Source: Candidatus Parcubacteria bacterium (GTDB taxonomy: Bacteria; Patescibacteriota; Patescibacteriia; Magasanikbacterales; UBA922). Taken from it: 54,348 bases of DNA. The translations under genes and the position numbers were made by a program. Shown here piece by piece: positions 38,743 through 44,157 of this stretch (positions within the stretch are counted from its first letter, which is position 1; each line of letters begins with the position of its first letter). The stretch spans positions 1-54,348 of the forward strand of contig JABGUG010000011.1 of assembly GCA_018646705.1 (NCBI GenBank), read 5' to 3'. The notes under the pieces were generated by a model. That model was not told where the DNA came from. It saw nothing but the letters and a program-made list of their open reading frames with translations, and ran no database searches.

Positions 38743-39207
38743 ATGAAAGAAAAAATGTCACGTGGTAAATTAATATTTCTTGTTGTATTTTTTGTTGCGG
38801 CTGGTTTCTTATTTATTTTTCAAAGAGTTTATTGGCCACACACTGTTGTTGAGCTAAAAGATCAGAAGTTGAACGTGCTTGTGGCTAAAAATATTTACCA
38901 ACAACAAAAAGGGCTTGGAGGACGTGAAAGTTTGGCTCCATATGATGGAATGCTTTTTCCTTATTCTCTGCTCGGGAAACCTACTATGGTTATGAGAGAT
39001 ATGGAGTTTTCAATTGACATTGTGTGGTTTTTGGATGGGGAAGTAGTAGATTTTGCCCCACAAGTTCCTACTGAACCGGGGAGGGCTGAATTTGAATATA
39101 TAAGATACTATCCTAGAACAGAGGCAAATTTGGTTCTAGAATTGCCAGGAGGGTGGGCAGATGAGCATAATCTAAGGATAGGGGACCGTATAGTTCATAG
39201 CCAGTAG
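38743..39207 (+). CDS. membrane-anchored DUF192 protein
   Basis: 154 residues. A single N-terminal helix (about 9-28) precedes a DUF192 domain: KLNVLVAKNIYQQQKGLGGRESLAPYDGMLF, MRDMEFSIDIVWFLDGEVV and NLVLELPGGWADEHNLRIGDRI. The domain is an extracytoplasmic beta-barrel of unknown function. The last residues (VHSQ) and the TAG stop are supplied by the first unit of a GTTCATAGCCAGTAG repeat, so the native C terminus may have been replaced. Confidence 0.85.
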   Translation: MKEKMSRGKLIFLVVFFVAAGFLFIFQRVYWPHTVVELKDQKLNVLVAKNIYQQQKGLGGRESLAPYDGMLFPYSLLGKPTMVMRDMEFSIDIVWFLDGEVVDFAPQVPTEPGRAEFEYIRYYPRTEANLVLELPGGWADEHNLRIGDRIVHSQ

Positions 39208-39242
39208 TTCATAGCCAATACTATTGGCTAATGGCTATTGGC
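39191..39242. repeat. GTTCATAGCCAATAG repeat, copy 1
   Basis: TAGTTCATAGCCAGTAGTTCATAGCC is followed by the inverse CTATTGGCTAATGGCTATTGGC. The element overlaps the stop of the DUF192 gene. Confidence 0.8.
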
Positions 39243-39320: not shown

Positions 39321-39635
39321 ATGTTTGCAGTTATTGAAACTGGTGGAAAGCAATATCTCATCAAAACTGGCGATACACTAAAAGTTGAAAAGCTTGATGT
39401 GGAAGCTGGAAAAGAGGTTGTTTTCGATAAAGTACTTATGCTTGCCAAAGAAGATGGTTCTGATGTAAAAATTGGTAAACCATACCTCGAAGGTGTAAGT
39501 ATTGCTGCTACTGCTGAAGAGCAAGGTAGAAGCCGAAAGATTCGTGTAGTGAAGTTTAAACGTAAGGTGCGTTATAAACGTGTAATAGGGCATAGACAAG
39601 CCTTTACTAAGGTAAAAGTCAAAGAAGTAAAATAA
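39321..39635 (+). CDS. rplU: 50S ribosomal protein L21
   Basis: 104 residues with the conserved MFAVIETGGKQYLIKTGD start, VLMLAKEDGSDVKIGKPYLEG in the middle and the basic RKIRVVKFKRKVRYKRVIGHRQAFTKVKV tail typical of L21. It binds 23S rRNA near L20. Its usual partner rpmA (L27) is not next to it; instead a terminator and two orphan RNAs follow. Strong promoter upstream. Confidence 0.96.
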   Translation: MFAVIETGGKQYLIKTGDTLKVEKLDVEAGKEVVFDKVLMLAKEDGSDVKIGKPYLEGVSIAATAEEQGRSRKIRVVKFKRKVRYKRVIGHRQAFTKVKVKEVK

Positions 39636-39650
39636 ACATTTCAAACAAAG

Positions 39651-39677
39651 ACTCACCTTATCAGGTGAGTTTTTTTG
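39651..39677 (+). terminator. terminator after rplU
   Basis: ACTCACCT-TATC-AGGTGAGT stem-loop followed by seven T. Confidence 0.9.
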
Positions 39678-39706
39678 TTGACATTTTTTTCATAATAAAA
39701 TAAGAT
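39678..39706 (+). promoter_or_regulatory. promoter of orphan RNA A
   Basis: TTGACA (39678-39683), 17 nt, TAAGAT (39701-39706). Initiation is expected at about 39712, where the G+C-rich RNA begins. Confidence 0.75.
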
Positions 39707-39711
39707 GATAT

Positions 39712-39943
39712 GGTCGACTGGCTCTGGCGGATGCTGATAGAGGGTTAAAGTTGCTCTTCTAGGAGAGTTCCTGATATAGGGTTCGTTCTTAGGGGCTTGT
39801 AAAAGTTCTAGAGTGGTCGTCCGGCCGGCTTTGGATGTTGCGTCTAGCCTAAGATATTTCGGTATCACAGGTGTGCAGACGGATGTCCAAGGTCGGTCCT
39901 TCTCTCTCTATTTCCACCTCTTCTGGTTAAGAGGTGTTTTTTT
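39712..39943 (+). ncRNA. orphan structured RNA A
   Basis: A transcription unit without credible coding capacity. Promoter at 39678-39706, terminator at 39915-39943. The ends pair (GGTCGACT 39712-39719 with GGTCGGTC 39891-39898, using G-U wobble). Local hairpins include CTCTT-CTAG-GAGAG, GGCT...AGCC and GATA-TTTCGG-TATC. G+C is much above the surroundings. RNase P core elements, SRP loop and tmRNA features were not found. Length about 230 nt. Confidence 0.7.
39915..39943 (+). terminator. terminator of orphan RNA A
   Basis: CACCTCTT-CTGGTT-AAGAGGTG followed by TTTTTTT. Confidence 0.9.
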
Positions 39944-39957
39944 ATACACAGACTCTA

Positions 39958-39986
39958 TTGACAACGAGGGTATTTTGAAGTATGCT
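39958..39986 (+). promoter_or_regulatory. promoter of orphan RNA B
   Basis: TTGACA (39958-39963), 17 nt, TATGCT (39981-39986). Confidence 0.7.
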
Positions 39987-39992
39987 GATGCG

Positions 39993-40432
39993 TCAGCTCA
40001 TTTTTAAACTAACCGTGGGTCTCCATACAAGTTGCTAGTGGATATCGTTGTTAAACGATGTCTTGATTGGGGAATCATAAAGCGCTAGTGCGTGGACTCA
40101 CGGTTTAGATACGCTAAGATGATCGACCGGGGTTTCTTCTCCCAGCCCTATCTTCTTTTGCCTTACATTGCCCCTCGCGGGGTCGTCACAGGCTGTTGCT
40201 CCCCACGAGCGAAAGAAGATTGCCATGACGGTGCCTGCCCCTTTTTCGGGGACCGCCGTTGTCCGGTAGGACGAGTCATCGATGCCGCGCAAGCGCTCAC
40301 AACGTCCAGGGTCTCCACCCGTTTTTCAATACCCCCGCCTGGAGACTTACGTTGTGACGCTTGTGCGGCACTTCCTCTCTGCCCATAAAATTTATGTATA
40401 GAGAAGAAAAATCCACCGTTATGGTGGATTTT
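39993..40432 (+). ncRNA. orphan structured RNA B (~440 nt), multi-hairpin
   Basis: No credible protein. Four large helices follow in series: AACCGTG...CACGGTT (40010-40105), TATCTTCTTT with AAAGAAGAT (about 40150-40220), CATGAC...GTCAT (40224-40280), and a 21-bp arm GCCGCGCAAGCG/CGCTTGTGCGGC (about 40283-40369). G-U pairs in two of the arms indicate that the plus strand is the RNA. Inside are stable loops (CCCCTCGCGGGG, GTCC-GGTA-GGAC). It probably ends at the bidirectional terminator 40408-40432. It matches no RNA family I know. Confidence 0.65.
40408..40432. terminator. bidirectional terminator between RNA B and recR
   Basis: AAAATCCACC-GTTAT-GGTGGATTTT. The recR stop codon lies inside its right arm. 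Confidence 0.8.
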
Positions 40433-41030
40433 AGTTTTGGGTTCTATTTTTTAGTGCACTTCCAAGTGTAATCTCATCTGCATATTGCAGATCGCTTCCC
40501 ATGGGTAGTCCACGTGCTAGACGTGTGACTTTTATTTCTGGCTTTAGTTTTTTGACTTGACGTTCGAGATACATCATTGTAGTTTCACCATTTAGATCTG
40601 GGTTGAGTGCGAGAATTATCTCATCAACTTTATTTTTTTGTATACGATTCATTAGCTCATTAATTTTTAGAAATCGTGCGATTCCTTCATCACCTGGCTT
40701 TAGTGTTCCGCGCAAGATGTGGTATTGCCCAGTATATTCACCAGTTTTTTCTATTGTTTCTCGATCTTGAGGTTGTGATACTACGCAAATTGTTTTTGGA
40801 TTTCGTTTTGGATCGTTGCAAAAATTGCATGGTGACGCATCAGAAAAATCCCAGCACACTTCACAACTTTTGATCTGGTCGATCATGTTTTTGAGTGCGA
40901 GGGTTATTTCAGCAGTGTCTTTCTTGCCACTACGCAATAGATAAAACACGAACCGTTCTGCGGTTCGTGGCCCCACCGTAGGGAGCTTTGAAAAAGCTTT
41001 TATTAGATTTTCTATTGGTTCTGCGTACAT
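40431..41030 (-). CDS. recR: recombination protein RecR
   Basis: 199 residues. Helix-hairpin-helix KLPTVGPRTAERFVFYLL, a four-Cys zinc finger (CEVCWDFSDASPCNFC), the Toprim domain (TICVVSQPQDRETIE and EIILALNPDLNGETTMMYLERQ) and the C-terminal VTRLARGLPMGSDLQYADEITLGSAL. It loads RecA with RecO/RecF at gaps. ybaB lies upstream on the same strand, the conserved ybaB-recR order, here split by an S23-family gene with repeats. Confidence 0.96.
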   Translation of the reverse strand: MYAEPIENLIKAFSKLPTVGPRTAERFVFYLLRSGKKDTAEITLALKNMIDQIKSCEVCWDFSDASPCNFCNDPKRNPKTICVVSQPQDRETIEKTGEYTGQYHILRGTLKPGDEGIARFLKINELMNRIQKNKVDEIILALNPDLNGETTMMYLERQVKKLKPEIKVTRLARGLPMGSDLQYADEITLGSALKNRTQN

Positions 41031-41035
41031 ATATT

Positions 41036-41067
41036 AGTTCATAGCCAATAGTTCATAGCCAATAGTG
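41036..41067. repeat. GTTCATAGCCAATAG repeat, copy 2
   Basis: Two direct units of GTTCATAGCCAATA between recR and the S23 gene, inverse in orientation to copy 3. Confidence 0.8.
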
Positions 41068-41456: not shown

Positions 41457-41486
41457 CTATGAACTATTGGCTACTGGCTATGAACT
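41457..41486. repeat. GTTCATAGCCAATAG repeat, copy 3 (inverted)
   Basis: CTATGAACTATTGGCTACTGGCTATGAAC, the inverse of copy 2, 2 nt from the end of ybaB. Confidence 0.8.
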
Positions 41487-41487
41487 C

Positions 41488-41784
41488 TTAAGACATTCCA
41501 GGTATATTTGGCATGCCACCCATTTCTTTCATCTTCATTGCCATGATACGTTGCATTTTTTTGAGGGCATCCTTGTGCGCATCTATAATTGCACTTTGTA
41601 ATTTTACTTTTTTGTCTGGACTCATGAGATCATCGTCAATGACGATGTCAGTTACTTCCAAGTTTCCATTCATGGTGAGTTCTACACCATTGGATTTTAC
41701 TGTGACACTTTCTCCCGCAAGAGCATCTTGCATTGTTTTTGCTTGGTCACGCATGTCTTTGAACTGTTTTAGTTTGTTGAACAT
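41488..41784 (-). CDS. ybaB: nucleoid-associated protein YbaB/EbfC
   Basis: 98 residues. An N-terminal helix MFNKLKQFKDMRDQAKTMQDAL is followed by the beta segment VKSNGVELTMNGNLEVTDIVIDDDLMSPDKKVKLQSAIIDAHKDALKKMQ and a Met-rich tail, the standard YbaB/EbfC architecture. It forms dimers that bind DNA and often lies next to recR. dnaB lies 42 nt upstream. Confidence 0.93.
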   Translation of the reverse strand: MFNKLKQFKDMRDQAKTMQDALAGESVTVKSNGVELTMNGNLEVTDIVIDDDLMSPDKKVKLQSAIIDAHKDALKKMQRIMAMKMKEMGGMPNIPGMS

Positions 41785-43396: not shown

Positions 43397-43564
43397 GCTG
43401 TATCTTACCTCACAACCCTCAAATGATCAACCCGTGTTTTTAGGTAATATGTGTGCAACATGTGGAGACTGTGTTGACAAAAGTGGATAATTTTGGTTGT
43501 ATAGTGTATAAGAAATAACCGTTCGAAGGGTCGAGCGGTTTACGTCCACGTTGAGGGGGAGTCA
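43397..43564 (+). promoter_or_regulatory. promoter and leader hairpin of the G+C-rich cassette
   Basis: TTGACA (43474-43479) with a weak TGTATA/TATAGT -10 near 43498-43505. AACCGTTCGA-AGGG-TCGAGCGGTT (43517-43540) is a 10-bp hairpin, followed by a strong Shine-Dalgarno GAGGGGGA (43553-43560) before the ATG. Confidence 0.55.
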
Positions 43565-43885
43565 ATGAGCAGGAAGACTGGTCCGAAGAAGAAGTCAGGT
43601 CGCATTCGGTTCGCCGAAGCTGGGGCGAAAGGCACTGACGCTGGGATCGTGAATCGCATCATCGTCCCGAAAGATCACGAGGTCAGCTCTACGCAGGTCT
43701 GGAAGCTGGCGGTCCAGAACAAGGCCGCTGCCGGTGGGAAGATCCTCATCTCTGTCGGGGATGAGGAAGCGCGTCTCATCTCCCACGATGACCTGTCGGA
43801 CGATCTCTGGCTGAAGAAGAAGGCTGCTCGCGCTGCGAAGCGCGGGCGTTCCCGTTGGGCCCACATCGGGGTCACCACCTCCTAG
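43565..43885 (+). CDS. unknown basic 106-residue protein in G+C-rich cassette
   Basis: I recognise no family. It is Lys/Arg-rich at both ends (SRKTGPKKKSGRIRF and LKKKAARAAKRGRSRW), with a mixed alpha/beta middle (NRIIVPKDHEVSSTQVWKL, KILISVGDEEARLISHDDL). It could be a nucleic-acid-binding protein; no signal peptide or membrane helix is visible. The codons are strongly G/C-ending and the gene has a consensus ribosome-binding site, unlike its AT-rich neighbours. It is bracketed by GTTCATAGCCAATAG repeats, suggesting acquisition. Function not assigned. Confidence 0.7.
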   Translation: MSRKTGPKKKSGRIRFAEAGAKGTDAGIVNRIIVPKDHEVSSTQVWKLAVQNKAAAGGKILISVGDEEARLISHDDLSDDLWLKKKAARAAKRGRSRWAHIGVTTS

Positions 43886-43902
43886 ACAAGGGAGTACCGA
43901 CG

Positions 43903-44007
43903 ATGAAGGCTTACCTTTGTTTCGGCCGGCGGATACCGCCCGGCATGGATCTCAGGGCGTGTACGAACCTCGTTCGCACCGCCCGCATTTTTACCAAGTT
44001 TTGGTAG
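43903..44007 (+). CDS. possible 34-residue peptide downstream in the same cassette
   Basis: A short frame MKAYLCFGRRIPPGMD..ending FTKFW, preceded by GGGAGTACCGACG as a possible Shine-Dalgarno. It contains two cysteines and many arginines. Its stop lies inside the large hairpin at 43982-44016. It may be a genuine small protein or simply transcribed spacer; there is no family or hydrophobic signal to support it further. Confidence 0.3.
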   Translation: MKAYLCFGRRIPPGMDLRACTNLVRTARIFTKFW

Positions 44008-44016
44008 AAGTGCGGG
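43982..44016 (+). other. 15-bp hairpin closing the G+C-rich cassette
   Basis: CCCGCATTTTTACCA and TGGTAGAAGTGCGGG pair over 15 bp (two G-U pairs on the plus strand) around AGTTT. It is followed by GAGG and CATGTAGTTACATG, not a U-run. Possible terminator or processing signal. Confidence 0.6.
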
Positions 44017-44079
44017 GAGGAAGATCATGTAGTTACATGGTGTGCGAGCGGGGTTTTATGTTATACTGATTTAGCCAAA

Positions 44080-44157
44080 AGCCAATAGTTCGGAGCCAAT
44101 AATGTGCAGTGTGTGGTTTGCATTTCTGTTGGCTATGAACTATTGGCTATGAACTAC
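44080..44157. repeat. GTTCATAGCCAATAG repeat, copy 5
   Basis: AGCCAATAGTTCGGAGCCAATA on the left and TTGGCTATGAACTATTGGC plus TATGAACTA on the right are inverted. It closes the G+C-rich cassette and ends just before the glycosyltransferase ATG. Read through, it would add a spurious N terminus. Confidence 0.75.

Follow-up and report, generated by a model that had tools for sequence, protein, structure and literature searches.

The gap between rplU and recR in a Candidatus Magasanikbacteria genome probably encodes a genuine, structured non-coding RNA specific to its lineage, here called RNA B, that ends in a 3'-protection module; we put the probability of this reading at about 0.6, and are much less confident of any particular binding partner. 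A promoter, the predicted fold, base pairs changed on both sides in relatives, reading frames at chance level, a terminator and homologues together argue for a real, structure-constrained and lineage-specific non-coding RNA gene. RNA B is also less isolated than first thought: numerous GC-rich transcription units in the order end in the same way. This recurrence across the order is the new finding here; in most cases the shared 3' end directly follows a GC-rich protein gene, usually an orphan.

Two tandem structured RNAs between rplU and recR

The window, i.e., the whole stretch of 54,348 nt that was analyzed, spans contig G000:C45 in full; the genome belongs to Candidatus Magasanikbacteria (Patescibacteria). 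This host genome (G000), from an uncultured bacterium, is reduced, at roughly 1 Mb, and the closest relatives of its RecR come from Candidatus Parcubacteria BM521 (95%) and from Ca. Magasanikbacteria genomes. It was compared mainly with a sister species (G001) and with a genome from another genus, UBA11699 (G032). Upstream of the locus lies rplU (39321-39635, plus strand; ribosomal protein L21, PF00829), and downstream lies the convergent recR (40431-41030, minus strand; RecR and Toprim Pfam domains). The gap between the two genes holds two tandem transcription units, RNA A and then RNA B.

RNA A has a promoter at 39678-39706 on the plus strand (TTGACA at 39678, a 17-nt spacer, TAAGAT at 39701), followed by two structured domains at 39708-39936 that end in a terminator hairpin (39915-39936). 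Its fold is more stable than expected (z -3.8), and it is intact in the sister species, with 61/61 predicted pairs kept, four of them changed on both sides. The sequence-only reading of this DNA had described RNA B as standing in tandem with a second, unrelated structured RNA, and these results agree with it. Of 86 genomes in the order, only the two that belong to this genus matched a model of RNA A.

RNA B is preceded by a sigma-70-type promoter at 39958-39986 (plus strand), with the -35 box TTGACA at 39958-39963, a 17-nt spacer and the -10 box TATGCT at 39981-39986, as the same reading had claimed. The promoter has the same form in the homologues from the sister species (TTGACA-17-TATGCT, locus L002) and from G032 (TTGACA-17-TATGAT, locus L003). 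The predicted transcript covers 39988-40432 on the plus strand, about 440 nt, and probably starts near 39992. By sequence consensus, RNA B has its own promoter and its own terminator. Its body has a G+C content of about 51%, vs 36% in the window. The folding energy of positions 39990-40440 was -184 kcal/mol, compared with -135 +/- 5.8 kcal/mol in 100 dinucleotide shuffles, none of which equalled it (z -8.45).

The minimum free energy (MFE) structure contains four large hairpins, all on the plus strand, and the earlier description of a G+C-rich, multi-hairpin RNA of about 440 nt was right in both its coordinates and its content. H1 (40009-40108) is a branched 5' domain with a stem formed by AACCGUGGGUCU and GGACUCACGGUUU and an inner hairpin at 40041-40062. 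H2 (40150-40220) is a stem of AUCUUCUUUUGC and GCGAAAGAAGAU enclosing an inner GC hairpin; its equivalent in the sister species is a CCUUCUUUU/AAAAGAAGG stem, a comparison of two sequences only. H3 (40221-40268) is a hairpin of the form GACGGU.../...GCCGUUGUC, which has a shorter equivalent in G001. The GC-rich H4 (40283-40370) has 22 bp plus an 11-bp inner extension, and corresponds to the hairpin previously counted as 21 bp. Two further elements had not been separated before: an A/U-rich hairpin at 40373-40407 (CUUCCUCUCUGCCCAUAAA AUU UAUGUAUAGAGAAG) and an intrinsic terminator at 40408-40432 (AAAATCCACC-GTTAT-GGTGGATTTT), both on the plus strand. The terminator may serve the convergent recR as well. 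We found neither direct repeats nor tandem guide-like arrays inside RNA B.

Conservation of the structure

A compensatory pair had been proposed from one sequence, which is insufficient for such a claim; the relatives, examined as the sequence-only reading had advised, do show two-sided changes. Across the 3' domain of the three genomes (G000, G001 and G032), 97.6% of the pair cells were standard, against 35-51% when the partners were slid, and nine pairs were changed on both sides, against 0-1 in the slid controls. In helices 1-3 of H4, 93-100% of the pair cells were kept and 6/28 pairs had two-sided changes, including A-U to G-C. The fourth helix, the A/U-rich hairpin, kept all of its 14 pairs, with three two-sided changes. 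In H1, all 21 tested pairs were kept in the sister species, and three two-sided changes fell inside the inner hairpin (0-1 in slid controls). With only three homologues the covariation is shallow: each comparison uses 2-3 sequences, and one of them is between close species.

The sister species has both RNA A and RNA B, the latter split over two contig ends (L002 and L007), and both halves fold like RNA B. In L007, recR is followed by a palindromic repeat-like insert at 1300-1506 (GTCATCCCGAGCG...CGAGGGATC) and then by a degraded second copy of the last 29 recR codons, adjoining RNA B, as if the insertion had duplicated the end of recR.

In G032, the locus between rplU and recR holds a single RNA of about 300 nt (z -7.9). 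Its last 135 nt or so, corresponding to the 3' domain only, align with RNA B, and the body upstream of H4 is unalignable; we infer that the 3' domain is conserved further and that the body evolves fast.

Coding potential

Both candidate frames, a 98-aa GTG frame in the host genome and a 91-codon stop-free stretch in G032, were rejected as evidence of a protein-coding RNA B, since the longest stop-free stretches were at chance level relative to dinucleotide shuffles (p 0.18 and p 0.42, respectively). The first ATG codons of the G032 frame fall inside the -10 box. Between G000 and G001, the aligned 3' domain contains indels of 4 and 2 nt, not multiples of three, as well as in-frame stops, and the frame is not conserved. 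No frame led by a Shine-Dalgarno sequence was seen in RNA B.

RNA B could instead be the remnant of a GC-rich orphan protein gene whose frame decayed, leaving the promoter, a hairpin-rich body and a typical 3' end. Most of the other units with a similar 3' end are GC-rich orphans that encode proteins, some other genera carry coding or GC-rich insertions in the rplU-recR gap, and the 91-codon stretch of G032 could be read as a trace of such a gene. We nevertheless regard this origin as unlikely: the G032 stretch is at chance level, and decay would keep neither the two-sided pairing of the 5' domain nor a z of -8.

Known RNA families and housekeeping RNAs

A scan of the whole window with Rfam 15 at the gathering score identified one tRNA and nothing else. 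With the threshold relaxed to E <= 10, the region 39640-40500 gave only weak matches at chance level, and no RNase P, SRP or 6S RNA. RNA B thus matches no Rfam family, and the orphan status assigned to it from the sequence holds.

Two candidates named at the outset, a divergent RNase P RNA and a divergent tmRNA, are similar to RNA B in length, and both could be set aside. RF00010 and related models did not match RNA B at E <= 10, and the host copy of RNase P RNA lies elsewhere (C22:9421-9964; E 8.5e-28, with a score under the gathering cut-off). This host match spans 544 nt for a model of 367 positions, with similar spans in genomes G006 and G038 (591 and 717 nt), which suggests that the host RNase P RNA carries a large insertion. 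For tmRNA, neither RF00023 nor ARAGORN matched RNA B, and the host gene was found at C25:8924-9330 (120.9 bits). The 6S model RF00013 had no match on the RNA B stretch or anywhere in the host genome. The SRP models RF00169 and RF01854 matched neither the RNA B stretch (E <= 10) nor any of seven genomes of the group, the host included. Since B. subtilis was also missing among the listed SRP controls, the SRP result in all seven genomes probably reflects divergence or limited search sensitivity; the SRP RNAs of these bacteria may have diverged beyond the reach of the models.

The length and complexity of RNA B would suit a divergent form of one of these four housekeeping RNAs, and the SRP and 6S posts are formally vacant in the host genome, which has no model match to either. 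We find such an identity hardly credible, given that RNase P RNA and tmRNA sit elsewhere in the host, that the RNA B stretch has no Rfam match to SRP, 6S or others up to E 10, and that strong matches to RNA B occur in only three of 86 genomes of the order, a distribution ill-suited to an essential RNA.

OLE, ROOL and GOLLD are large, ornate RNAs of bacteria whose functions are poorly understood; OLE measures 577 nt in C. acetobutylicum, and ROOL is found in phages and prophages, near tRNA islands (PMC12286853). Like them, RNA B is long, separately encoded, intricately folded and recognized by comparative sequence. Unlike them, it consists of simple hairpins in a string, with no demonstrated pseudoknot or multi-way core, and the Rfam models of the three families did not match it, either at the gathering score or at E <= 10.

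Distribution at the locus and beyond

A model of the RNA B 3' domain gave strong matches (121-156 bits) in G000, G001 and G032 only, among the 86 genomes of the order; all the rest scored 41 bits or less. In most other family members the rplU-recR gap is short, and some genera carry GC-rich or probable coding inserts. Models R1 and R2, run on 28 rplU loci, found nothing convincing besides G032. In G030, from another genus, the rplU-recR site contains a GC-rich insert of about 450 nt (L014, 978-1430; z -7.05) with no detectable similarity to RNA A or RNA B; it includes a 141-codon frame on the reverse strand without an evident ribosome-binding site.

Such patchy occurrence at the locus might point to GC-rich DNA that moves as an element or a cassette; recombination would then take place at the palindromic 3' end, and the RNA would be incidental. 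The recurrence of the 3' module at unrelated sites would fit, as would the palindrome of RNA B, which may loosely resemble the arms of Xer/dif sites. Such an element is, however, very unlikely in our view: RNA B is single copy in the host genome, neither a shared 5' boundary nor a transposase was seen, searches of phages, plasmids and viral contigs gave no matches, and the pairing is kept as RNA, G-U pairs included.

A 3' module shared across the order

The weak matches of the 3' domain in other genera led to loci of one common plan: a GC-rich hairpin, a C/U-rich link (CUUCC), an A/U-rich hairpin of 12-16 bp with an AAAAUUU-like tip, an A-rich run and a terminator. In AT-rich genomes, several of these loci lie directly 3' of GC-rich ORFs (GC 0.57-0.68, GC3 up to 0.88), most of which match no Pfam family. 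Over its last 65 nt or so (A/U hairpin, A-run, terminator), RNA B is laid out like the ends of many GC-rich mRNAs of the order, with a 3' UTR hairpin plus an intrinsic terminator; unlike in those mRNAs, no protein gene precedes it.

We searched for the module with R3, which models the last 55 nt and whose training set consisted of weak R2 matches (24-41 bits); because the reverse strand of RNA B itself scores 23.7 bits with R2, some of the training members may be chance matches. In the window, R3 found RNA B with 60.7 bits, and all other independent matches stayed at or below 16.4 bits. A match of 21.7 bits is the reverse strand of the RNA B palindrome itself, as palindromes match R3 on both strands. 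Across 39 genomes of the order, at least 25 matches had E <= 0.05, at least 22 of them outside the training set, both counts being lower bounds with about 146 candidates scored per genome; in eight unrelated genomes (13.6 Mb) there was one at this threshold, among the matches listed. Of the 22 listed non-training matches, 15 adjoin a flank of at least 50% G+C, vs 9.5% of random positions, a baseline drawn from rplU loci and the window; by reading, most of the 22 stand right before a terminator. Within this evidence, the link of the module to GC-rich units stands firmest, and the 3' end of RNA B looks like a shared 3'-UTR/termination module that recurs across the order.

Many Magasanikbacteria genomes (loci L093, L095-L102 and L106-L126) have protein genes of high G+C content (as much as 68%, with GC3 reaching 0.9). 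Most are orphans, and they end in a GC hairpin, an A/U hairpin and a terminator. They include membrane, lipoprotein-like, proline-rich, WD40-like and methyltransferase-like types. Two GC-rich (about 54%) single-gene units with a promoter-like site were also seen in the window. The first (43460-44110, plus strand) encodes an orphan protein of 106 aa that matches no Pfam family, and the second (49720-48780, minus strand) a CDP-alcohol phosphatidyltransferase, with a strong GC hairpin at its 3' end.

It is conceivable, and we offer it only speculatively, that Magasanikbacteria hold a class of GC-rich, fast-evolving and mostly orphan units, coding and non-coding, that are marked by the common 3' module; a dedicated system for RNA binding or for RNA export/stability would read this mark, and RNA B would be a member consisting of RNA alone.

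The C/U-rich part of the module could have another role. RNA B might be a trans-acting antisense regulator whose pyrimidine-rich segment CUUCCUCUCU base-pairs with Shine-Dalgarno regions rich in purines, with the remainder as a scaffold. The motif CUUCCUC, invariant in the three homologues, is complementary to GAGGAAG-type leaders, but CUUCCUCUCU is predicted to be paired within the A/U-rich hairpin, and a similar stretch occurs in mRNA 3' ends, so that a structural role would explain the segment equally well. On balance antisense action appears doubtful.

Possible role of RNA B

If RNA B is a structured non-coding RNA gene, as we favor, the GC hairpin, A/U-rich hairpin, A-run and terminator at its 3' end would act as a module for termination and 3' protection, of a kind that also appears to end many GC-rich mRNAs of the order. 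Owing to this module, the transcript would be made, abundant and long-lived. The fast-changing upstream domains would be the working part, most likely by protein binding. Our analysis pointed to neither a partner protein nor a target, so any working mechanism is conjectural; RNA B most likely functions as a stable RNP or a regulatory RNA, with a small ribonucleoprotein, a sponge or a scaffold as candidate forms, rather than as a coding RNA, RNase P RNA or tmRNA.

The non-coding RNAs of Patescibacteria are nearly undescribed, and our literature search found no paper on them. A covarying orphan RNA of 440 nt in a reduced genome of about 1 Mb suggests that scarce sequence is spent on RNA functions, and the shared 3' module could be used to search for an entire class of orphan transcripts rich in G+C.

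The surroundings of the locus contain, in addition, short GTTCATAGCCAATAGT / CTATTGGCTATGAAC repeats (window positions 39201-39230, 41035-41065, 41470-41490 and 44075-44155). They are present at further rplU loci too (e.g., L017, L019 and L022), and look like a small family of dispersed palindromic repeats.
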